Shown one piece after another: positions 4,708-25,146 of a DNA stretch of 26,792 bases. Where the stretch lies: the IMG/VR virus record IMGVR_UViG_3300027741_000231, positions 1-26,792 of that record. One strand, 5' to 3'. Numbering within the stretch: the stretch's first letter is position 1; each line of letters opens with the position of its first letter. A program made the translations under genes and the position numbers. The notes under the pieces were generated by a model. It did not search any database and was not told the origin of the DNA. It saw nothing but the letters and a program-made list of their open reading frames with translations. This stretch comes from a virus.

Positions 4708-6456
4708 TTACACCCCACCAGTAACAGTACTAACTAAGTTAGATGCAAGTAGGTATGGAATTTCATTAGCTGCTAATGTTATAGTGTTTACTGATGTAGA
4801 TCCGTCTTTTGATAGTTGAGTTAAAGAAGTAGAGATTACTCCTTCTACACTTTGAATAGCAGAAGTTACTTCTGAAATATTTATAGTTCTTCCAAAAGTA
4901 TTATTTTCATATTGAAATAACCCGCCTGTTCCCAGCATAGCTTGATAAATTGCTAACTTTACGTCTGCATTTCTAAAAGCAGAGTCTATTGAAACTGTTG
5001 CTGCTACATAAATAGGCACATATGTTGGGGGAAGTACAGATACGTCAGTTCCTACCAAAATTTTATCTGCTAAATAAGCATCTACGCTATATGAAAGATT
5101 ATACCAAGATGAGGTAGGGGTTAAAGAAATAGCTAATCCACCTGCAACATAAAGATTTGTAAGGGTACTAGCTATAGTAAAACTAGATGTAGTAGGTATT
5201 GCTGTAATAGTTACGCCTGAAAGATTATAAACTGTTGGGTTTATGCCAGAAATATTTAAGGTATTACCAATAGCAAATCCGTGATCAGCATCGGTAGCAA
5301 AAGTAACTGCTGTTCCGGTAGTACTAATACCAATTATATTAGCTTGAGGATATCCAGTAGCAGCTTGTCCATCATCCATAGGTTGAACATACAAGTTCAC
5401 ATTTGTATAGGTAGTTGAAGCAGCATTAGCTTTACCTACTCCTTCAGAAAGTAAAGACAAAAATGCATAATCAGCTAAAGTTACTGCTCTACGTCTTGTA
5501 GTAGCGGCCGCTTTAATTTTTTTCTTTATGCCAGTCAAACTATCAGCATCAGCACCTCCAGTAGCAGGTGCATTATTAGATGCAGTAAAGTAAGATGTTA
5601 CTGCTGGATCAACATTTCCTGGAAAAAAAGTAACTTCTGTAATTGCCAAAGATTTAATATTTCCCGCAGATCCAACACTAGTTTTATAAGTTGCACTTAT
5701 TAACTGCCCGCTTGGTGGAATAGCTCCATTTACACCATCACCAAAAAGAATATTTACAGTGCCATCTTCATTAGGAAAAAGACCAAAAACTTTATCTTGA
5801 GGCCCAGCTTCTAAAAGATTATCCATATAAGACCAACTACCAAAAGCAATACCCTGCCCAATATAAGCTGTTACTGAATTATTGATTACTCCTGTATCTG
5901 CAACTGTAAAAAATTGATTTAACGAACCATCAGAAGTTCCAAGGTTTGCTGGAAGAGCAATATTATAGGTGCTATCAATTAAATCTGGACGGTCTGTATT
6001 TACTGTTTTTCCTTCTTGACAGACAAGAGAAATTGTTGCACCTGGAGCCACTGCAGTAGCAGCAGTCGTTGTTTCAAAGTAAACTTCTGAATAAATGCCA
6101 AATGATAGTGGGGCCATAACTTGAGTTCCTGCAGGAATATCTAAAGTATAGTCACTAATATTTGTAAACGTTACAGTTACTGTTGCAGGTGTTGGTCCAG
6201 ATGGAATATAATCATAAATTGAAGCCAAAGATAACAAGGTACTGCGTTGAATTGCTGTATCTAAGGTTGTTTCGTTTGCAATACGGTCTAAATAATGAGA
6301 CATAATGTCTCCCATATATGCAAATGATTCTACAAGTACATGTCCTAGATCTGAATAGTCAGTAGGATCCCACGTAGTTCCTGTGCGTTCTTTAATTAGA
6401 GCAATTAAATCTGCTTTTAATGCAGCAAAGTCTCTAGATGTATAGTCAATTTGCAT
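4708..6456 (-). CDS. Baseplate wedge protein, gpJ-like
   Basis: 582 residues. The N-terminus (YTSRDFAALKADLIALIKER, then SDLGHVLVESFAYMGDIMSHYLDRIANET) is the classic start of gpJ/T4 gp6-like baseplate wedge proteins. The core motif LFGDGVNGAIPPSG (about 237-250) and RRRAVTLADYAFLSL (about 321-335) also fit the family. The protein forms the dimeric wedges that ring the tail hub and drive baseplate opening. Residues about 371-446 are an inserted beta module also found in the sheath and an adhesin of this phage. The start is two bases after the gpW/gp25-like stop, with GCGGGG upstream. Confidence 0.92.
   Translation of the reverse strand: MQIDYTSRDFAALKADLIALIKERTGTTWDPTDYSDLGHVLVESFAYMGDIMSHYLDRIANETTLDTAIQRSTLLSLASIYDYIPSGPTPATVTVTFTNISDYTLDIPAGTQVMAPLSFGIYSEVYFETTTAATAVAPGATISLVCQEGKTVNTDRPDLIDSTYNIALPANLGTSDGSLNQFFTVADTGVINNSVTAYIGQGIAFGSWSYMDNLLEAGPQDKVFGLFPNEDGTVNILFGDGVNGAIPPSGQLISATYKTSVGSAGNIKSLAITEVTFFPGNVDPAVTSYFTASNNAPATGGADADSLTGIKKKIKAAATTRRRAVTLADYAFLSLLSEGVGKANAASTTYTNVNLYVQPMDDGQAATGYPQANIIGISTTGTAVTFATDADHGFAIGNTLNISGINPTVYNLSGVTITAIPTTSSFTIASTLTNLYVAGGLAISLTPTSSWYNLSYSVDAYLADKILVGTDVSVLPPTYVPIYVAATVSIDSAFRNADVKLAIYQAMLGTGGLFQYENNTFGRTINISEVTSAIQSVEGVISTSLTQLSKDGSTSVNTITLAANEIPYLLASNLVSTVTGGV
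5119..5346 (-). other. Inserted beta module in gpJ-like protein (copy 1 of 3)
   Basis: Encodes about residues 371-446 of the gpJ-like protein. Landmarks: TAVTFATDADHGFAIGNTL, then NISGINPTVYNLSGVTITAI, then SSFTIASTLTN. The order F-x-G-x2-hydrophobic, I-x-G, YNLSGVTI, FTI matches the modules at 16120-16377 and 26163-26396. The short beta-strand repeats recall the E1_FCCH-like or Ig-like modules sometimes reported in phage structural proteins; the family name is uncertain. Confidence 0.65.
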
Positions 6457-6458
6457 GA

Positions 6459-6851
6459 TTACCCCGCAATTATTCCGTTATATGTAATAGTACCTGTGTT
6501 AATGGTTAAGGATGTAAGTGTATCATCTGGAAGCTGTAAAGACAGGATTACATTCTCTGTCCCATCAATATTAGCCCCAGCAAATTCTACTGACATAACG
6601 CTTACTTCTGGAAGCCATTTAGATATAGCCTGGGTAATAGCTACCGGTATAGCTTTTTGAGAGTCCCCATCATTTTCAAAAAGTGACTTGCTCCAATCAA
6701 CCCCATAAGTAGGCAGCATAGGTCTTTGACCTACGTAAGTTGATAGTAGGGTTAAAACCCTATCAAGGTAGATTTTGGCAGCAGAAGTAGTATTTTGAAC
6801 TATTCCTTGAGAACCAATAGTATAAGGAAAGCTAATTGCTTGTTGTGTCAT
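6459..6851 (-). CDS. Baseplate protein, gpW/gp25-like
   Basis: 130 residues from the start MTQQAISFPY. Family marks are residues about 20-45 (TTSAAKIYLDRVLTLLSTYVG), RPMLPTYGVDWSKSLFE, then AITQAISKWLPEV and a beta-rich end. This is the gpW/T4 gp25 fold that links the baseplate wedge to the sheath. I chose the ATG at 6851 because it overlaps the upstream stop as ATGA and has GGGAG seven bases upstream; an in-frame ATG six codons earlier lies inside the preceding gene and has no better site. Position between the gpV-like and gpJ-like genes is canonical. Confidence 0.9.
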   Translation of the reverse strand: MTQQAISFPYTIGSQGIVQNTTSAAKIYLDRVLTLLSTYVGQRPMLPTYGVDWSKSLFENDGDSQKAIPVAITQAISKWLPEVSVMSVEFAGANIDGTENVILSLQLPDDTLTSLTINTGTITYNGIIAG

Positions 6852-7480
6852 GATTGGACTCCCATCCATACAGGGTGTTCAGGATTTCCCGCTATAAACA
6901 TTACCCAGACTAATTGCCCAACTACAGGAACTGATCTATGAAAAGTATGTTCAGGTGTTTTTACTGACGTGCTAGACGATGTTGTTCCTGGTGCGTATAG
7001 TCCACTAGCCGTAGTATATAAACTTGTTTCTTTTGTATCTGTTACAGATGTAGGAGCAGTTACAGCCAGCCCTTTATTAACCATAGTTTTAGTAGTTGTA
7101 TGGGCGTGATTAAGTTGCATTGTTGAGTCTTTAGCAACTACCGTAAGTGCTGGAATAGTAACTGAGTGCGTGTGAGTACCTGAAGGATAAGAAGGTCCAG
7201 TTCCAGAAGTAACTGTAGTAGAAGTTGTAGTCAACATTGCTGCTACTTGGGCAGCAGTATGGGGTAGATGATCTGGGTGATAGGATGAGTCTGTTACTGG
7301 TAAACAAGCTTCTGCCCAATTATGTGCTGCTTCTCCGGTAATTTGTTGCACTTGAACTTTAATTCTATTTCGTTTTAAAGGATCAGTAACGTCAACAACT
7401 TTTGCAGAATATATGCCAGGATAAACTGGACGTCCAATAGGGTCTAAACCATACTCAGATTCTAATTGTCTATAAGACAT
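6848..7480 (-). CDS. Baseplate spike/hub protein with gp5/gpV-type OB fold
   Basis: 210 residues. Residues about 15-50 (GRPVYPGIYSAKVVDVTDP, then KRNRIKVQV) are the opening strands of the OB fold of gpV/gp5/VgrG proteins. The C-terminus (SVPVVGQLVWVMFIAGNPEH, then PVWMGV) is the matching closing strands. Between them lies a long Thr/Ser/His-rich stretch (about 85-175, with HTHS and HAHT) instead of the more compact OB core, perhaps a loop or metal-binding segment. No lysozyme domain is present. The protein should sit at the hub tip below the gpD-like subunits. The start overlaps the upstream stop (TAATG). Confidence 0.85.
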   Translation of the reverse strand: MSYRQLESEYGLDPIGRPVYPGIYSAKVVDVTDPLKRNRIKVQVQQITGEAAHNWAEACLPVTDSSYHPDHLPHTAAQVAAMLTTTSTTVTSGTGPSYPSGTHTHSVTIPALTVVAKDSTMQLNHAHTTTKTMVNKGLAVTAPTSVTDTKETSLYTTASGLYAPGTTSSSTSVKTPEHTFHRSVPVVGQLVWVMFIAGNPEHPVWMGVQS

Positions 7481-10910: not shown

Positions 10911-13276
10911 TAAAGTGCCTTTCCTAATGCATCAAGAACCTTACTAGAAGTAAGTTGTTTTCCAATATCTTTAACTAAACGTTGAGTTTCCCGAATACTT
11001 GCTTGAGCAATATTTACGTTCATATGTAAATTAATAACTGCAGTCTTACCACCCGAAGTATGTGTTCCAATTGAAGAACCTATATTCATTGCATCAAGTG
11101 ATCCACCACGATCCTCATTAGATCCTGTGCTGGCTAATGAAACACTTAAACTTGGACTGCTAAGGCTAGTAATAGATTTATTTGAATGTGAATTAATTTT
11201 TAAACCAGAAGTAACTGATCTAGCTACAGACATATTTTGTCCGGATACTGCTCTAGGACCTGCTACAGCTGAAGCAGTTAAACTTCCATTAGTAGGGGAA
11301 GCAGGCGCACCATTTAAATATGGTGCAGGGTTTACCCTAACACCGCTTTTATTAAGAAGCTCAAAATGCAAATGTGGGCCAGTAGAGTTACCAGCACCAG
11401 GTGCTCCAGCTTTACCGCCAGATTTACCTACAGCTTGTCCAGCCGCAACTTTTTGTCCTCTAGAAACATGAATTTGAGATAGATGGCCATAACGAGATGC
11501 AGTACCGTCATCGTGTTTTACTTCAACCCAATTCCCATAACCTTTAGCATCATTACCGATGGTACTAATAGCACCAGGTGCAACAGCAGTTAGGGCGCTA
11601 CCTACAGGCATTGCAAAGTCCATACCGTGGTGGTATGCAGAAATTCCAGGATGTTTAGAGTTATCTCTTGGTCCAAATCCAGAAGTTACAATAGCATTTT
11701 TTGGTCCAGGGAAAAAAAGTGACATCAAAGAAGATTCGCCACCTACTCCAGTACCTAAGTTACCGTGATCACTTGGACCACCAGTTGCGTAACCAATTCC
11801 ACCAGCAATAAGTTCTGGAAGAATAGTTTCACCTAATCCTGGTATAGCAGCAGTTATGCCAGCCCACTTTGCAGCATTACCTGCTCGTGAACGGAAACTT
11901 CCTTTAGAAGAATTTCCTTTAATAAGGTTTCCAGCAAGCATTGATCCGCCAGCAATTAAACCGCCCTTAAGCATTGATCCGCCTAGCATCTTTGCTGCCC
12001 CAGCACCACCTAGTGCTTCAAAAACACCGCCTGCTAATCCCTTTAATCCTAATGAGCTGCTGCCACCAAGAAGTTTACTTAATATTTTATACTCTAAAAT
12101 ACTTTTTCCTATGCCAATTCCTGCACCAGCTATACCAGAAGCTGTTCCACCCATGCCACCAGCATTAGGGAAGGTTTGTAAAATTCCTTTAAGGGTCATT
12201 AACCCATCATTAACGGGTCCAAGAATGTCTGCCATTTTGCTATATGCATCATTAAGGGATGCGGCTGTACGAAGAGAGGCATCATATCCGCCTACTAATC
12301 CTTGTTCAGTAGAAGCAAGTTTTTTATTTTCACTGGAGTTATAACGAAAGTTAGCACGAATAGGAGAACTTTGATCCACACCCATAGCATTTAAAACTTT
12401 ATTTGGATCACTCATTTGAGACGCGGTAAGTGGTCCACCATTAGATGCACGTGCAAGAATACCAGATTGAATCATCTGCATTAATTGAGCATCGCCACCA
12501 GTAATTTGTTGAATGGTTGCATAACCCTTACTTCCAGGGTTTAATACAAGTGCTGCTTGTTGTTTTGTAATCGTTTGTCCACGATACAAGAAACTATACA
12601 CGTCATTAATAATTTGGTTAGGTGGTTTTAGGTTACCTTGACGGTCACGAATTTGAATACCGGCACGTAAAAAACTCATGCCGTTCATACTGGCCATACT
12701 TCCGGCAGCTTGTTCGTTACTCATACCAGACATGGCGCTTAATCCACCAAGCTGTCCCATAATGTTTTTAGAGCTTAAAGAGCTAGCTGTATAACCACCC
12801 TGGTACATTAAATTCATCGCGGCCATGGTTGGACCCATAGCACTTGTAGCCCCACCGCTTACTTGACGGTTAGCTTGAAGAATTGCTTGACGAGAAGACA
12901 TTCCGCTAAGTCCGGCATATGTATCAGCACTCATGCGCTGTGTAACAGCCGCCATAGTATTTGGTGCCATAGAGTTATAAATAGCAGCGCCTACGCCTGC
13001 TACACCAATACCAATGCCAATTTTTTCAGCACGAGTAAATTCACCAAGGCCTAAACGTCCGGCACCAGGTCTTCCAGCAGCAGCTTTTCCTGTCGCAGCC
13101 TCAGTATCTTTAATGGCTTTAGACCACTTTTCAACCATCTCATCTACAAGTTTTGCAGCCTCTTTAAAATATTTAATAAAGTTTTTAGGAAGCCCATCAA
13201 AATCAACTTGGTCAGATGTAGGTGAAAAAGAGGTGGACTCAGCATCCGATGGTGGGAACATACTTTGAGTTGCCAT
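10910..13276 (-). CDS. Tape measure protein with internal M23 peptidase
   Basis: 788 residues. Helical, Gly/Ala/Ser/Met-rich sequence with hydrophobic segments (IGIGIGVAGVGAAIY, and Gly-rich stretches at 370-500) is typical of tape measures. Residues about 520-655 are an M23 zinc endopeptidase: H549 and D553 (HHGMD), H598 (YGHLS), and H635/H637 (HLHFE), so the metal site and catalytic histidine look complete. It should cut peptidoglycan cross-links as the tail penetrates. About 130 residues follow the peptidase. Tail length scales with the tape measure at roughly 0.15 nm per residue, which would suggest up to about 115 nm. The start has GGTGAT upstream and lies five bases after the small ORF at 13282-13404. 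Confidence 0.9.
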   Translation of the reverse strand: MATQSMFPPSDAESTSFSPTSDQVDFDGLPKNFIKYFKEAAKLVDEMVEKWSKAIKDTEAATGKAAAGRPGAGRLGLGEFTRAEKIGIGIGVAGVGAAIYNSMAPNTMAAVTQRMSADTYAGLSGMSSRQAILQANRQVSGGATSAMGPTMAAMNLMYQGGYTASSLSSKNIMGQLGGLSAMSGMSNEQAAGSMASMNGMSFLRAGIQIRDRQGNLKPPNQIINDVYSFLYRGQTITKQQAALVLNPGSKGYATIQQITGGDAQLMQMIQSGILARASNGGPLTASQMSDPNKVLNAMGVDQSSPIRANFRYNSSENKKLASTEQGLVGGYDASLRTAASLNDAYSKMADILGPVNDGLMTLKGILQTFPNAGGMGGTASGIAGAGIGIGKSILEYKILSKLLGGSSSLGLKGLAGGVFEALGGAGAAKMLGGSMLKGGLIAGGSMLAGNLIKGNSSKGSFRSRAGNAAKWAGITAAIPGLGETILPELIAGGIGYATGGPSDHGNLGTGVGGESSLMSLFFPGPKNAIVTSGFGPRDNSKHPGISAYHHGMDFAMPVGSALTAVAPGAISTIGNDAKGYGNWVEVKHDDGTASRYGHLSQIHVSRGQKVAAGQAVGKSGGKAGAPGAGNSTGPHLHFELLNKSGVRVNPAPYLNGAPASPTNGSLTASAVAGPRAVSGQNMSVARSVTSGLKINSHSNKSITSLSSPSLSVSLASTGSNEDRGGSLDAMNIGSSIGTHTSGGKTAVINLHMNVNIAQASIRETQRLVKDIGKQLTSSKVLDALGKAL

Positions 13277-19552: not shown

Positions 19553-19801
19553 CTACTCCTTTTCTTCTGCAAAGCTTACCTCTATAGTACCCCATTTATC
19601 TTCAGGGCAAGAGGCATTTGGCAATTTAGTTTTTAATGGCATAAAACAACCGCACAGTTTACATTGTTTTGTTGCTGAAATAAGGAATGGGCAGGAATTG
19701 CAGATATCCATACGTTCTTTTTGAACAGCAGGCATTACCTTTTCTAGATTCTTATTAAAGATATCCCAAGGTCTGGCCGGACGATCAAATGGATCTTTCA
19801 T
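19553..19801 (-). CDS. Small zinc-binding-type CxxC protein
   Basis: 82 residues from MKDPFDRPARPWDIF. Residues about 30-70 contain DICNSCPFLISATKQCKLCG, then CFMPLKTKLPNASCPEDKWG: cysteines in C-x2-C, C-x2-C-x-C and C pairs, probably a zinc site. This C-x2-CP...C-x2-CGC-x-M-x2-K...CP-x2-KW pattern belongs to a widespread small phage family without known function. The start is set by the ATGA overlap with the upstream gene; an earlier in-frame ATG lies inside that gene. Confidence 0.75.
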   Translation of the reverse strand: MKDPFDRPARPWDIFNKNLEKVMPAVQKERMDICNSCPFLISATKQCKLCGCFMPLKTKLPNASCPEDKWGTIEVSFAEEKE

Positions 19802-20127
19802 TCTGTAAAGTTTTCTCCATCCCACTTCCAACCTATTGTCGGTCGTGTAGGCCATTTTTCTTCTACAAGTTCAATCATTAAAGGTTCTGCCATAAGAAGG
19901 TTTTTTGTTTTTTCATCTACTGTAACTACTTCACGAACAACATTTTCTTTAACCATAGCAATATAAAATACACTTACTTTATGGTCATCGTGATTGTGTT
20001 TGGGCTGCTCAACATGTTCAATACCCTTAGATCTTTTAGATCTAGCTGATTTAGTTAATAGGTCAGCAAGCCATTCACGAATTAAAGGGCCTTTATCAAC
20101 AACTGGTTTTACCTTTTTTTTACTCAT
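19798..20127 (-). CDS. Small protein with shared GW-x-x-DG-type domain
   Basis: 109 residues. The N-terminal 50 are basic and His-rich (KSARSKRSKGIEHVEQPKHN). Residues 53-109 hold YIAMVKENVVREVVTVDEKT, then ELVEEKWPTRPTIGWKWDGE, then NFTE. The same short pattern (hydrophobic strand, N-x-V-x-x-V, a variable helix, then IGW/GMKY and F-T) occurs in the products at 20835-21062 and 25152-25433. Such proteins are often found near fibre genes of phages. Role unknown. The start lies eight bases inside the upstream gene, with GAGGAAAG upstream. Confidence 0.65.
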   Translation of the reverse strand: MSKKKVKPVVDKGPLIREWLADLLTKSARSKRSKGIEHVEQPKHNHDDHKVSVFYIAMVKENVVREVVTVDEKTKNLLMAEPLMIELVEEKWPTRPTIGWKWDGENFTE

Positions 20128-20800
20128 AAACTTTCCTCACCCATTGAAATTTTTTATAAAAATGTTTATTTAAAGATACTTTTTTTCCTAATTCTTTTGC
20201 TATACCGGTAAGTTCAAATGCATGACGATGTGTCCAAGAAGCACGTTTTACAGGAATTACTTGAGCATAGGGTGTTCCTTTAGGAATTATACCTTCAAAA
20301 CCTTCTTTAATAAAAAAGGGTATATTGCCGTTAGATATAAACCTATCACTTTCCATAAATGCAGAAACAGTTGTAAAAGGTAGGTCAAAACGATTATAAG
20401 GATGAGTAACAATTACGCTCCAACCACGGGGAGTTTTCCAACCCCATTGTGATTCCCAAATTAAACCGTTTACAGAATGACCCTCTGGACGAGGAATAGT
20501 AGCCCCCATTTGAGCTGGTCTTTCTGTTAAAACAGGTCCAGCATAATCCCAACCAAGTTTTTGTTTACCATCTTTATCAATAGTTACATGAATATCTGTT
20601 GGAGTAGTCAACATATACCCTGAAATCATAATGTCTAAAAAAGGCACACAAGATTTCATTCCATTTATAACTTCACCATTAGGCGAAGTAAAATGAAGTT
20701 CTCCCTCTTTGTACCATTTAGGTACATGAACTTTACCAGGTTCTGGATAACCAGCAGCAGTACTTTTGGGTTGTGACGGAATAAATTCAATAAGTTTCAT
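20120..20800 (-). CDS. Conserved phage protein of unknown function (226 aa)
   Basis: 226 residues, no transmembrane segment. Landmarks: PGKVHVPKWYKEG, then KSCVPFLDIMISGYMLTTPT, then ESQWGWKTPRGWSVIVTHPY and NRFDLPFTTVSAFMESDRF, IPKGTPYAQVIPVKRASW. A start PEPGKVHVPKWY, the CVPFLD-x-x-x-SGY motif and HP-x-NR-x-DLPF/T recall a conserved protein family of aquatic phages (possibly DUF6065); its function has not been shown. It may be an enzyme or a structural accessory. It sits in the accessory part between fibre and neck genes. The start has GGGG six bases upstream. Confidence 0.65.
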   Translation of the reverse strand: MKLIEFIPSQPKSTAAGYPEPGKVHVPKWYKEGELHFTSPNGEVINGMKSCVPFLDIMISGYMLTTPTDIHVTIDKDGKQKLGWDYAGPVLTERPAQMGATIPRPEGHSVNGLIWESQWGWKTPRGWSVIVTHPYNRFDLPFTTVSAFMESDRFISNGNIPFFIKEGFEGIIPKGTPYAQVIPVKRASWTHRHAFELTGIAKELGKKVSLNKHFYKKFQWVRKVYE

Positions 20801-20834: not shown

Positions 20835-21062
20835 TTAGCTGACTGTAAATTCTTTTGTAGAAGGGTTGTACTTCATACCTGGTTGTTCTGTCCCTGTAAC
20901 TTGTACAAAAGTAGGGTTAGATAGATAAGCAGCTGCAGTCTGTCCATCAACGTTCATAAGATTTACTAATACGTTGTCAACAAGAAGTGCAATAAAATAT
21001 GGATTTGGTGTAATGTTCTCTGGCTTAGGTAGAACAAAATTTGGTACTTGAGGTAGGCTCAT
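20835..21062 (-). CDS. Small protein with shared GW-x-x-DG-type domain (copy 2)
   Basis: 75 residues: PNPYFIALLVDNVLVNLMNV, then DGQTAAAYLSNPTFVQVTGT, then EQPGMKYNPSTKEFTVS. After a Pro-rich start it matches the domain of the 109- and 93-residue neighbours: strand, DN-x-VLVN, short helix, then a G-x-x-Y...F-T end. It directly follows the cysteine-rich fibre gene, with AAGGAAA upstream. It may aid fibre folding or attachment, as small genes after fibres often do; this is inference. Confidence 0.65.
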   Translation of the reverse strand: MSLPQVPNFVLPKPENITPNPYFIALLVDNVLVNLMNVDGQTAAAYLSNPTFVQVTGTEQPGMKYNPSTKEFTVS

Positions 21063-21070
21063 GATTTTCC

Positions 21071-22285
21071 TTAGTTTGTAGTTGATGAGTAATCATCCAG
21101 GGAGGTTCCCTGGTTGTAGTCTGAAGGTGACAAAATTATACCAAATTTAGTGCCCGTTTGGGCAGAACCAGCATCATAAGTTATGTCAGCCCCAATTTGG
21201 GTACTCAGCTTATCTGAGTATACCTTAACTGCAACATTTTGAGAGTTAGAGGTTACCACAGAAATACTCTGAGCAACAGAGGAAATTGCTGTACGTACTA
21301 CTCTAGTTACGCTATTTGAAGCTGATTTAAGGATATAAACAAACGCTGGATAGGTAGTAGGATTTGCCGCAGTACACGTAGAACAGTTACAGGAATAATC
21401 GTAATAGCTACTACATGCAGTTCCGGTACTGCAGTTACAGGAATAGTCGTAATACGCACTACACCCATAGCCAGTAGCAGAATCGCAATAATAGGATCCT
21501 GGAGTGTAAGAAGCTGGAGAAAAATAAGAGCTAACGTATCCTGTGCAAGAGCCATAATAATATTGGGTAGTATATGCTTTACAGCAACCATAGGCAATAT
21601 AGTAGCTCCCATAAATAAACGCATAGCAAGTTCCGTTGTTTGAACATACAGTCTGCGACTGTGTGCATCCGTAAGTATAACTATACCCTGCACCGTAATA
21701 TGACGGGGTATATGAGCTTGGAGTGTAAGAACTGCCTGCCCCACAATAGGTGTAACTATAGGGGGAATTACAATATGAACAGGTAGAGCAATTATAAGAA
21801 TATGTGTAGTATCCCCCGGAACAATATGAACAGGTAGAACAGTTGCAACTATAGGTATAGTATGTAGTTAAAGCTTCTTGTACAGGGACGGCCCCAAACC
21901 AGTTTCCACTATCAGTAACCCAAAAAGCAGCGCCAGTACCGTTTGTAACTGACCCAATTGATTGGGAAGCATTTGCAGTTCCTTGAGTAATTGCGGCAAT
22001 AGGATAGTTAGATGGACTAGAACTTACGGCTTTAGAGCCATCTGCAGTCCAAGTTCCTCGAATTGCTTCCCAAGACTGACCATTATCCGTAGTTCCAAGA
22101 TTGCTATTAGTTGTTCTAGTAAAGGTATCTAAAATAGTTCCTGTAAACCATTGATACCAAGTTCCAGATACTTTAACAAATGCTTTAGATGCTACACGCC
22201 AACTTGAAGAGCCGCCTGTAGTAACTTTAACAAGTAATCCGCCTGCAGATTTCCAAGACCCATTAACTTTTAATTTATTAGGCAT
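21071..22285 (-). CDS. Fibre/adhesin with Cys/Tyr-rich insertion in a lectin-like fold
   Basis: 404 residues. Residues 1-48 are a short beta head (KLKVNGSWKSAGGLLVKV, WYQWFTG). Residues 51-135 begin a concanavalin/LamG-like sandwich: DTFTRTTNSNLGTTDNGQ, SWEAIRGTWTADG, then GAAFWVTDSGNWFGAVP. The fold is interrupted at 138-306 by about 170 residues rich in Tyr, Cys and Ser, then resumes (YPAFVYILKSASNSVTRVVR, KVYSDKLSTQIGADITYD). The insertion probably forms an exposed, disulphide- or metal-stabilised tip for receptor binding. No signal peptide is visible. The gene follows the repeat fibre with a TAATG overlap. Confidence 0.7.
   Translation of the reverse strand: MPNKLKVNGSWKSAGGLLVKVTTGGSSSWRVASKAFVKVSGTWYQWFTGTILDTFTRTTNSNLGTTDNGQSWEAIRGTWTADGSKAVSSSPSNYPIAAITQGTANASQSIGSVTNGTGAAFWVTDSGNWFGAVPVQEALTTYYTYSCNCSTCSYCSGGYYTYSYNCSTCSYCNSPYSYTYCGAGSSYTPSSYTPSYYGAGYSYTYGCTQSQTVCSNNGTCYAFIYGSYYIAYGCCKAYTTQYYYGSCTGYVSSYFSPASYTPGSYYCDSATGYGCSAYYDYSCNCSTGTACSSYYDYSCNCSTCTAANPTTYPAFVYILKSASNSVTRVVRTAISSVAQSISVVTSNSQNVAVKVYSDKLSTQIGADITYDAGSAQTGTKFGIILSPSDYNQGTSLDDYSSTTN
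21368..21874 (-). repeat. Cys/Tyr-rich insertion with internal protein and DNA repeats
   Basis: Encodes about residues 138-306 with 22 cysteines. Four related copies of a 13-14-residue motif occur: YYTYSCNCSTCSYC (142-155), YYTYSYNCSTCSYC (159-172), YYDYSCNCSTGTAC (278-291) and YYDYSCNCSTCTA (294-306). On the plus strand, CAGTTACAGGAATA occurs twice (near 21384 and 21432), as does GAACAGGTAGA (near 21778 and 21829), pointing to past tandem duplication. Confidence 0.85.
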
Positions 22286-23565
22286 TATTGATAAACCACC
22301 CAGAGATCTCCATCAGAACCTTGACCGCTAGTAGGGGACGCGGTTCCTACCCAAACATTTCTTACAACGCCTAAAGATGTAGAAGCTGACGTTACTGTAC
22401 CGTTTGCTTGTGCAACATATGAAGTAGTTGGTGCCACCCAAGTAGCAGTACTACCGTTGCTTGTTAAAACGGTTCCAGAGGCTCCTAAGCCTAGTCTAGA
22501 CACAGCTCCAGCTCCTGACCCAAGAATAAGATCTCCGGCCGTTGTAACGGTCGCTAGAGGGATTTTAGAGGTATCTGTAGGTACAGCCCAAGCAGCGGTA
22601 GTGCCATTGCTCACAAGAGCATATCCAGAAGTACCAATACCTAAACGACCAACGGTACCGTTACCTGTACCAAGAATAAGATCTCCGGCAGTTGTTACGG
22701 TAGAGAGAGGAATTTTTGTAGCAATAGATGCGGGTAGACCAGTTGTAGTTGCGGTCTGGACAGTAGCAAAGTCTGAAGCTGATACCGCTGTATTTGCCCA
22801 AGCAGGTAAACCAGAAACAACTGTTAATACTTGACCGGCAGTTCCTATACCTAGTCTAGTATTTTGAGTATTGTAATAGTGAAGGTCTCCAGCAGTAGTT
22901 AGCGTATTGCTTAAAAGATATGAAGGCAAAGTTGTCCATGCAGGAATGCCGCCTGAAACAGTTAAGTATTGGCCGGAAGTTCCAATTCCAAGACGAGCAA
23001 CTGCAGCTGATCCTGTGCCATAAATTAAATCTCCAGAAGTAGTTACTGTAGATAGAGGCACTTTAGCTGCAGCAGAAGTTGATGCGGCAGAAGTAGCCGA
23101 TGTTAAAGATGTATAGTCTGAACTACCTACATAGAGAACGTTATTAGATCCAACTTTAGGTAAACCAGCAGAGTCTAAGTTAAAGTTAAGAGTACTTGCG
23201 TTTGAGTAAGCTTCAATAAGGTTAAGGCTAGATGCTCCGGCACGAAGAGTTAAACCCTTATTAGTAGTGGTAGTAATTGTACTTCCACCTGCAGTTGATG
23301 TATAGGGTGCCCCTGTAACGCCAGAAACAAGTCCTGCTTCAATATTAGCAATGCGGTCGTATACAGTTCCCCAAAGAGTTCCTTGAGAAAAAGAACCTGT
23401 CCATGTTGAAACAAGGGGGTTTTGGGAAGTAGCAGCGCTACCTAGAATAGTTTCAATCTGCTTAACTTCCTCTTGGAGGGAGTTAACGTTATCCGCAATA
23501 ATAGTGTTGACAAGGTCCTGCTGAGCGGTATAGTTTCTTACGCTATTGGGAAATACAGCTGTCAT
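22285..23565 (-). CDS. Tail fibre with four 36-44-residue repeats
   Basis: 426 residues. The N-terminus (FPNSVRNYTAQQDLVNTIIA, NVNSLQEEVKQIETIL) is a helical, probably trimeric attachment region. Residues 168-377 hold four related repeats with the core TVTTAGDLI, R-LGIGTSG, and G-x-x-AW. The C-terminus VRNVWVGTASP, then GQGSDGDLWVVYQ is a common phage fibre ending. Repeated LGIGTSG blocks of this type form beta-helical shafts. The start has AAGGAG six bases upstream. It probably contacts the host, together with the Cys-rich protein encoded directly downstream. Confidence 0.8.
   Translation of the reverse strand: MTAVFPNSVRNYTAQQDLVNTIIADNVNSLQEEVKQIETILGSAATSQNPLVSTWTGSFSQGTLWGTVYDRIANIEAGLVSGVTGAPYTSTAGGSTITTTTNKGLTLRAGASSLNLIEAYSNASTLNFNLDSAGLPKVGSNNVLYVGSSDYTSLTSATSAASTSAAAKVPLSTVTTSGDLIYGTGSAAVARLGIGTSGQYLTVSGGIPAWTTLPSYLLSNTLTTAGDLHYYNTQNTRLGIGTAGQVLTVVSGLPAWANTAVSASDFATVQTATTTGLPASIATKIPLSTVTTAGDLILGTGNGTVGRLGIGTSGYALVSNGTTAAWAVPTDTSKIPLATVTTAGDLILGSGAGAVSRLGLGASGTVLTSNGSTATWVAPTTSYVAQANGTVTSASTSLGVVRNVWVGTASPTSGQGSDGDLWVVYQ
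22435..23064 (-). repeat. Four imperfect repeats in fibre gene
   Basis: The repeats encode residues about 168-210, 220-256, 284-327 and 334-377. At DNA level the last two are closest: CCAAGAATAAGATCTCCGGC starts at 22519 and again at 22669 on the plus strand, exactly 150 bp apart, which suggests a recent duplication. Confidence 0.85.
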
Positions 23566-23609: not shown

Positions 23610-24167
23610 TTAGGAAGGGTTTATACGCTTAAAATTATCTATAATGGCTTCCACATAGTTACTAGGAATGTCCATAGTAAGTAACTTGGAAAATATAGCT
23701 TTTGACTCTTCGGCTCTTCCTATCCACCAACCAGCAACCGCTTTTTCAAACTCTAGGGCAAAGTTTCCAGGGTAGCCTACATCAACGGGCAGAGGCGTTT
23801 GTTCAACTTTAGAGAGCCCCATAACTGCCCAGGTATAGGCTTCATGCCATTCCGCTTTTTGTTCATGATACTGGGCCATAATAAAATAAGCTTCAGGACG
23901 ATCCGGGTTAACTATCAGGGCTTGGCGCCAACAATTAAGCACCGTATGCTCTCTGTTATTTTGAGTAGAAAGACAAACCGCCATTTTTAACAGGGAAGCA
24001 TATGCCAGGTCATTGTGGGTATCTACCCCATATTCAGCAGTCCTCAAATAAAAGGTTATAGCAGAAGCTGCCTGCTTAAGATCTTCGTACTTAACCGCTA
24101 CTCTAAAGTTTAACTCCGGGTTAAAAGGATCCTTAGACAGGTCTACTATCAACTCTTCAATTCTCAT
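23610..24167 (-). CDS. TPR-like protein paired with the GH130-like gene
   Basis: 185 residues from MRIEELIVDLSKDPFNPELN. Helix pairs with TPR spacing are visible: FRVAVKYEDLKQAASAITFY, YASLLKMAVCLSTQNNREHT, RPEAYFIMAQYHEQKAEWHE and EFEKAVAGWWIGRAEESKAI. These repeats have A-x3-Y/F and P-x-x-PEAY marks, as in TPR proteins beside phage glycan enzymes. It may scaffold or regulate the sugar-acting neighbour. The ATG at 24167 has GGAGG ten bases upstream and overlaps the previous stop by 11 bases; an ATG six codons earlier is less likely. Confidence 0.65.
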   Translation of the reverse strand: MRIEELIVDLSKDPFNPELNFRVAVKYEDLKQAASAITFYLRTAEYGVDTHNDLAYASLLKMAVCLSTQNNREHTVLNCWRQALIVNPDRPEAYFIMAQYHEQKAEWHEAYTWAVMGLSKVEQTPLPVDVGYPGNFALEFEKAVAGWWIGRAEESKAIFSKLLTMDIPSNYVEAIIDNFKRINPS

Positions 24168-25146
24168 AGTTAAGGGCCTCCACAATTAGTTCCTCTACCA
24201 ATATACCTGGAGTACGAATAATGAAGGCGCAGTTATCGCTGACGCTAAAGCTTAGGAGTAGATCCCCATCAAGCTCTGCCGCTCCAACGCAGAATTCAAT
24301 TCGAGCATCTAGAAAAGAAAAGGGTTTAGATAGACCTACTAGATCTAGATTGTTATTCCAGACACATAATCTATGACGATAGATACCGTCTTTTTGTATT
24401 AAGTAATTTTTAAATAGATCTACTTCGTGGGTGATTGAGATGTAACCGTCACCCCATCTGACAAGTTGAGACCCTCCACGTTGATCTTTGTTTGGTCTGA
24501 TACCTTGCTTGAGGGATACTTGTTTGGTAGTTTTGATCTCTGGGATGTATTGCACAACTTCCACAGGAGAAGCCCACTTAATAAAATTATAAGGCCTATC
24601 AGCAATAGGCATCCAGTTTTTTTCACAGTATGATGTATCAGGTTCTGGAGTCGGTATACGATCACGGCTAGCCTCTTTAACAGTCCAAGTTTCTTTATCA
24701 ATATCTATCTGGGTAAGTTCCATACGACCTTGACCACTAGTTGTGGTATCACGCCGCACCCCAATAACATAATACTTATTATCCCATTGAACAAGGCGAG
24801 CATCTTCTAAACCAACAAACTCCCAGATAGGGGTGTGTAGATTTAACATCTCTACCTTTGTGTGGTTAATAACTTCAAGGTTTTTATCTAATCTTACTAA
24901 GTAATTTTCAGTAATTAAACGTTGATCTTTTTCAGGGTGTAGGTATGCCAAAGGGCCCCAGGGTGAGGGAAAGAGCTGTTTATTCTCAGAGTGGTATAAC
25001 GTATAGTTAGTAGCCCTGACGTTAACTAAGATGTCACCATCACTATCTATGTAGATAGATGGATTCATTAAAGCTGTAAGATCATGTGGAAAAACTATGG
25101 GGGTTAACTTTCCGCCCAGTTCTACCGCCCTTTGCACCAAATTCAT
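24157..25146 (-). CDS. GH130-like beta-propeller glycan-active protein
   Basis: 329 residues. Motifs of GH130-type (beta-mannoside phosphorylase-like) five-bladed propellers are visible: NPSIYIDSDGDILVNVRATN (28-47), GLEDARLV (112-119), EKNWMPI (175-181), RGGSQLV (223-229) and HEVD (240-243), then IEFCVGA (283-289). GLEDAR and the later RGGS and HE are near the usual active-site loops. The protein could process mannoside-type glycans on the host surface or in glycan synthesis. Similar genes occur in large phage and virus genomes near glycosyltransferases. Activity is not certain, because catalytic residues cannot be proved here. Confidence 0.68.
   Translation of the reverse strand: MNLVQRAVELGGKLTPIVFPHDLTALMNPSIYIDSDGDILVNVRATNYTLYHSENKQLFPSPWGPLAYLHPEKDQRLITENYLVRLDKNLEVINHTKVEMLNLHTPIWEFVGLEDARLVQWDNKYYVIGVRRDTTTSGQGRMELTQIDIDKETWTVKEASRDRIPTPEPDTSYCEKNWMPIADRPYNFIKWASPVEVVQYIPEIKTTKQVSLKQGIRPNKDQRGGSQLVRWGDGYISITHEVDLFKNYLIQKDGIYRHRLCVWNNNLDLVGLSKPFSFLDARIEFCVGAAELDGDLLLSFSVSDNCAFIIRTPGILVEELIVEALNYEN

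Follow-up and report, generated by a model that had tools for sequence, protein, structure and literature searches.

A cysteine- and tyrosine-rich insert in a phage fibre protein probably forms a long antiparallel hairpin that runs out and back and is held by nested cross-strand disulphides, a cystine-ladder spike. The protein is encoded in a 26.8-kb viral metagenome record of a contractile-tailed phage (the window, 26,792 nt). Our analysis demonstrates that it belongs to a fibre family whose cysteines are even in number and fixed in position, and whose insert segments change in concert with their mirror-image counterparts. An antiparallel hairpin with nested disulphides would explain the parity, the fixed cysteines, the palindromic spacing and the coupled changes together.

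The fibre gene and its insert

The fibre gene (positions 21071–22285; minus strand, as are its parts, the adjacent structural gene and the downstream genes described below) encodes 404 amino acids comprising an N-terminal anchor and a beta-sandwich split by the insert. The anchor (residues 1–50; 22136–22285), with the motifs KVNGSW / KVSGTWYQWF, also occurs in family members L009 and L014, with a similar one in L124. Alignment places the first part of the sandwich at residues 51–137 (21875–22135), ending in WVTDSGNWF, and the second at residues 305–404 (21074–21373); AlphaFold2 models them with pLDDT values of about 85–94 and, from residue 311, about 86–96. Between them, composition delimits an insert at residues 142–304 (21374–21862) with 22 Cys (13.5%), 40 Tyr, 32 Ser, 19 Thr and 16 Gly. 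All of the fibre's cysteines lie here and none in the rest of the protein, and the mean cysteine content of the window's other proteins is 0.54%. The original prediction of a Cys/Tyr-rich repeat insert with 22 cysteines in a fibre is thus confirmed.

The four recurring CNCSTC-type motifs described in that prediction are also present, as two pairs of the form YYxYSxNCSTx at opposite ends of the insert: YYTYSCNCSTC (starting at residue 142) and YYTYSYNCSTC (159), then YYDYSCNCSTG (278) and YYDYSCNCSTC (294). The first pair belongs to a 17-residue duplication (YYTYS[CY]NCSTCSYC) in what would be the hairpin's outgoing arm (residues 142–219; 21629–21862), and the second to a 16-residue duplication (SxYYDYSCNCST) in the putative returning arm (residues 236–304; 21374–21580). 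Both duplications are directly visible in the DNA, with copies 51 nt apart in one and 48 nt apart in the other. Four-fold degenerate codons of the insert use all four bases at their third positions, as ordinary coding DNA does.

The reading frame is open throughout and matches that of the homologues, and on this ground we rejected the frameshift that had been named as a possible refutation. That the insert arises from an error of frame or assembly, or has been diversified by a retroelement, is extremely unlikely: L015 and L016 have in common what looks like a break in frame within the insert, which would favour such a reading, but 40 complete relatives keep a single open frame and the insert is under purifying selection. 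We rejected retroelement diversification, as no reverse transcriptase (RVT_1) was found in the contigs of 18 relatives (0/18; these contigs may be incomplete). The break itself (L015:5900-6990 and L016:5900-6990) separates halves with 10 and about 10 cysteines and could reflect programmed frameshifting, a disrupted gene or an error common to both contigs.

Structure prediction gave a partial view of the insert. In the AlphaFold2 model of the window's fibre, the core is modelled with pLDDT of about 85–96, the insert falls below 50 and residues 153–298 are left unmodelled; a model of the L002 group built from nine sequences reached a pLDDT of 33 and likewise gave no fold for the insert. In the former model the insert's ends do pair at its base, as strands 145–153 and 298–306, and we count this modelled pairing in favour of a hairpin. 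The idea that the insert interrupts a lectin-like sandwich thus held for the split sandwich and only weakly for the lectin likeness: in Foldseek searches of the PDB with the modelled core, the best matches were legume lectins at E 0.025 or worse with low TM-scores.

A family of fibres from viral metagenomes

Searching for such insertions in other fibres, as had been proposed, turned up dozens of relatives on IMG/VR contigs. They have the same layout, with an insert of about 90 to 480 residues at the same point of the sandwich, directly after a conserved WVTDSGNW. Most of these contigs are fragments, with many near-duplicates among them, so that the number of loci exceeds the number of independent events; our statements on independence are based on insert types below 60% identity. 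Two scans with the core alone recovered further insert-bearing members and no homologue lacking the insert.

Outside these contigs, the family was hardly recognised by sequence. None of 29 members matched Pfam or PHROGs at E 0.01, no NCBIfam model fits the fibre, no relative was confirmed among GTDB genomes, and we found no description of such fibres in the open-access papers searched. In isolated phages, tblastn with four family members and a core-only query (with a low-complexity filter that masks the insert) gave only chance-level matches at E 5 and E 8, the former to Pelagibacter phage Greip, which we do not consider a relative. A Foldseek search of BFVD with the fibre model identified six proteins of "uncultured Caudovirales phage" (A0A6J5KM36, A0A6J7WYT9, A0A6J5RDN1, A0A6J7WRS3, A0A6J5REI5 and A0A6J5MLT4; E 1e-21 to 7e-11), to which no name or function is attached. 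Compared by modelled fold rather than by insert or cysteine pattern, these probably belong to the same family.

Some phages encode more than one such fibre. L010 has paralogues a few kilobases apart (ORFs 6025-7074 and near 11283) with 16 cysteines each, whose inserts are 73% alike and whose cores are 65% alike. L124 is the second fibre of the L024 phage and carries a different insert of 12 cysteines (CPSGG...SGTTC type), even in number and not palindromic.

Genomic setting

The nearest relatives of the window's tail sheath are those of Streptomyces phages of the BRock group (33–34% identity). Immediately upstream of the fibre gene lies a 426-aa virion structural protein (22285–23565; phrog_23837), which also adjoins the fibre in L009 and L014. 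Farther upstream of the fibre genes, 23610–25146 encodes a TPR-like protein, weakly matching a phage glycosyltransferase, and an unassigned 329-aa protein, both possibly involved in glycosylation of the virion or host. Downstream are a 75-aa protein (20835–21062; homologues in 18 of the loci examined), a 226-aa protein (20120–20800; phrog_7084) and a 100-aa DUF6171 protein with six cysteines (19553–19855), the latter two with homologues in 35 of 40 loci. The isolated-virus relatives of the phrog_7084 protein occur only in haloarchaeal tailed viruses, in one of which the gene is close to adhesin and tail-fibre genes.

Small proteins encoded downstream in the same operon had been suggested as redox or metal chaperones for the insert. 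This suggestion is not supported, since the 75-aa neighbour contains no cysteine and DUF6171 is not specific to the family: its occurrence in 71 isolated-phage records as well, for example in a nucleotide-metabolism region of Stenotrophomonas phage Moby, led us to reject a dedicated chaperone. Thioredoxin is encoded in 3 of 18 relatives' contigs.

Even numbers and fixed positions of cysteines

The total number of cysteines was even in all 40 complete members analysed, and all of these cysteines lie in the insert. Counts were 0, 10, 14, 16, 18, 22, 24, 26, 28, 30, 32, 40, 42 and 50; the last, for L043, is counted from the start common to its relatives, a post hoc correction from the 51 obtained with an upstream Met. 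Members found or read later (L124, L135 with 34 cysteines, L138 with 36, and L142) are also even. Clustering at 60% identity gave 16 cysteine-bearing insert types, or 18 with L135 and L138, for which uniformly even parity has a chance of about 4e-6 if parity is random. In bovine antibodies, even cysteine counts have been taken as evidence of disulphides (PMC7366855).

Cysteines are also fixed in position. Most pairs of close relatives keep every one (22/22, 24/24, 40/40 or 50/50), while as many as half of the remaining insert positions have changed. The insert's dN/dS was below 1 wherever it could be computed, and positive selection was rejected on this basis. At synonymous sites, the divergence of the insert often far exceeds that of the core (1.55 versus 0.17 for L054/L060) and sometimes falls below it (0.24 versus 0.46 for L053/L060). 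Taken with the dN/dS values, this variation in both directions suggests that inserts are exchanged as cassettes, which is more likely than positive selection.

We consider it very doubtful that the insert is a tyrosine-based or low-complexity adhesive or flexible surface with no defined fold, its cysteines serving for random cross-linking. Its composition and low pLDDT would fit, as would the Tyr-rich, cysteine-free inserts of L009 and L014; set against them are the fixed positions, even parity and dN/dS of the cysteine-bearing inserts. A tyrosine-based adhesive, as originally proposed, is not supported as the family's common feature, as the L013 insert is almost without tyrosine (24 Cys versus only 2 Tyr). 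The inserts of L009 and L014 are the kind of similar, cysteine-free insert that had been named as a possible refutation of the prediction. They limit that claim and do not remove it, because the same contigs encode a paralogue with 24–26 cysteines.

Mirror-image spacing and coupled changes

The spacing of cysteines along the insert is palindromic, with segment k matching segment n-k in length. Across 17 representatives the Fisher p was 3e-14, or 7e-7 once two terminal segments were trimmed from either side; both values are optimistic because some representatives are related, and the first mirror cases had been noticed before the tests were set up. The window's spacing (1,2,2,10,2,2,8,25,6,5,13,0,11,19,7,7,1,5,7,1,2) is moderately significant as a palindrome (r 0.81, p 0.017; log-ratio test p 0.035, or 0.086 when trimmed). 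Its centre, CYAFIYGSYYIAYGCC (residues 220–235; 21581–21628), is the proposed tip; the stretch CYAFIYGSYYIAYGCCKAY there resembles the centre of the L029 and L033 inserts although the arms differ. Lysine, rare in the inserts, is likewise central: in 21 of 24 cases it falls at a relative position of 0.36–0.64. The palindrome fails in L024 and L124 and is weak in L005, L023 and L029. In a rough control of ten other cysteine-bearing ORFs, one, a minus-strand ORF in L025, was palindromic at p 0.002. Two further controls, gp92 (61 Cys) and gp98 (23 Cys) of Synechococcus phage S-CRES3, have odd counts and are not palindromic (p 0.19 and 0.45, respectively); having no recognisable similarity to the family, neither is counted as a member. 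The former (L132:2930-4549; 539 aa), encoded near lectin-like tail genes of a cultured cyanophage, is a different kind of cysteine-rich protein.

Mirrored segments also diverge together. The divergence of segment k correlated with that of segment n-k at a pooled r of 0.43 in register (shift 0), falling to 0.30 at a shift of +1, 0.18 at -1 and at most 0.09 beyond. The palindromic spacing recurred in three members found after the hypothesis was formed, with r 0.98 for L138, r 0.98 for L142 and p 0.007 for L135 (combined p 6e-9), L142 belonging to the L085/L086 group and so not being a fully independent test. Individual comparisons illustrate the coupling of mirrored changes. L020 and L022 differ by a swap of modules at Cys 6–8 and 17–19 of 24, involving two SPSYPC modules in one arm and two YYYAC modules in the opposite arm; L034 has one more cysteine than L006 in segment 7–8 and one more in segment 17–18; L040 has five fewer cysteines than L043 on each arm; L001 and L002 differ mainly in segments 5–8 and 15–18 of 22; and on both arms, cysteine-free repeats of 10–11 residues number about two in L085 and about four in L086.

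This coupling bears on a third reading, in which a short beta stalk carries a compact disulphide knob, as in bovine ultralong CDR H3, and the cysteine pairing pattern varies between phages. A Cys/Tyr/Gly/Ser composition on a beta-sandwich, even cysteine counts and strands at the insert's base agree with such a knob, but a free knob predicts neither the palindromic spacing nor the mirror-coupled changes that we observed, and we regard it as improbable. As for the disulphide-knotted tip of the original prediction, parity, fixed cysteines and mirror-coupled segments indirectly support the disulphides, and they point to an orderly ladder rather than a knot.

A proposed cystine-ladder spike

From these regularities of sequence we infer the hairpin, its disulphides, the time at which they close and a contact role. 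The insert would be a long loop of the fibre's beta-sandwich, extending outward and returning as a single antiparallel hairpin, in which Cys i of the outgoing arm bonds Cys n+1-i of the returning arm. For the window this mirrored pairing predicts 11 rungs, from C147-C304, C149-C301, C152-C299, C155-C291, C166-C285 and C169-C283 on the outside to C172-C275, C181-C267, C207-C247, C214-C235 and C220-C234 on the inside. The strands would otherwise consist of Tyr, Ser, Gly, Thr and Asn, with the tip capped by a turn that often contains Lys and Gly; paired gains and losses on both arms would change the spike's length. An arm of about 80 residues, fully extended, corresponds arithmetically to about 26 nm. 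Standing on the sandwich, the spike probably contacts the host or stiffens the fibre tip. A receptor role is probable given that the fibre gene adjoins a virion structural protein and that the insert diverges fast. Phage fibres are synthesised in the cytoplasm, and since this is a reducing environment the bonds would most likely close after lysis.

The same hairpin could instead hold metal (Zn or Fe) at its cysteines along an oligomer axis, as the His-X-His sites of T4 gp37 hold iron. We consider this unlikely. Frequent CxC and CxxC motifs, the thiols favoured by cytoplasmic synthesis and the DUF6171 protein often encoded nearby speak for it, as does the L040 subfamily, in which CC stands opposite CxxC and would give four cysteines per rung. 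This CC subfamily (L035/L040/L043) fits the mirror pattern in a register shifted by one. However, many cysteine totals (10, 14, 18, 22, 26, 30, 34, 50) are not multiples of four, histidine is nearly absent at about 0.2% of insert residues, and DUF6171 lacks specificity, so that the metal-loaded tip first proposed is possible yet less likely than disulphides. Overall, the original interpretation of the insert is partly supported.

Comparison with known systems and significance

To our knowledge, no phage fibre is built on dozens of cysteines arranged as a ladder. The closest likeness in a fibre is the receptor-binding needle of the T4 long tail fibre protein gp37 (PDB 2XGF, cited in PMC10175313; also PMC7291167), an elongated antiparallel beta tip with a receptor-contact region, a shape proposed here from sequence. 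Mirror coupling is compatible with out-and-back strands of this kind, and the insert itself is unfolded in the AlphaFold2 models. The two differ in that gp37 is held by His-X-His and iron rather than by cysteine, has no sequence match to the family and does not share the position of our insert inside a beta-sandwich. Cystine-ladder hairpins of the theta-defensin type would share the topology of parallel disulphides across two antiparallel strands; those are small cyclic peptides with three disulphides and no homology to the fibre, whereas 5 to 25 rungs are predicted here in a linear virion protein. Their head-to-tail cyclic backbone is absent, the insert being internal to a 404-aa ORF. In bovine ultralong CDR H3, a loop rich in Cys, Tyr, Gly and Ser is likewise carried by a beta-ribbon stalk that leaves a beta-sandwich (PMC8602281, PMC7366855), but the fold is that of an antibody, the small knob holds one to a few disulphides and no palindrome has been claimed. 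The chances are about even that 5 to 25 nested rungs in a fibre sandwich, varying in length by coupled gain and loss of modules on both arms and with a topology legible from sequence, constitute a novel architecture.

For a low-complexity region left unfolded here by structure prediction, the mirror pattern specifies a topology that can be tested, and two distant segments of one protein are seen to evolve together. Even cysteine counts, palindromic spacing and lysine near the centre provide a signature with which such spikes could be sought in viral proteins that lack annotation. Should the ladder be real, these phages would have a regular protein rod of tunable length.
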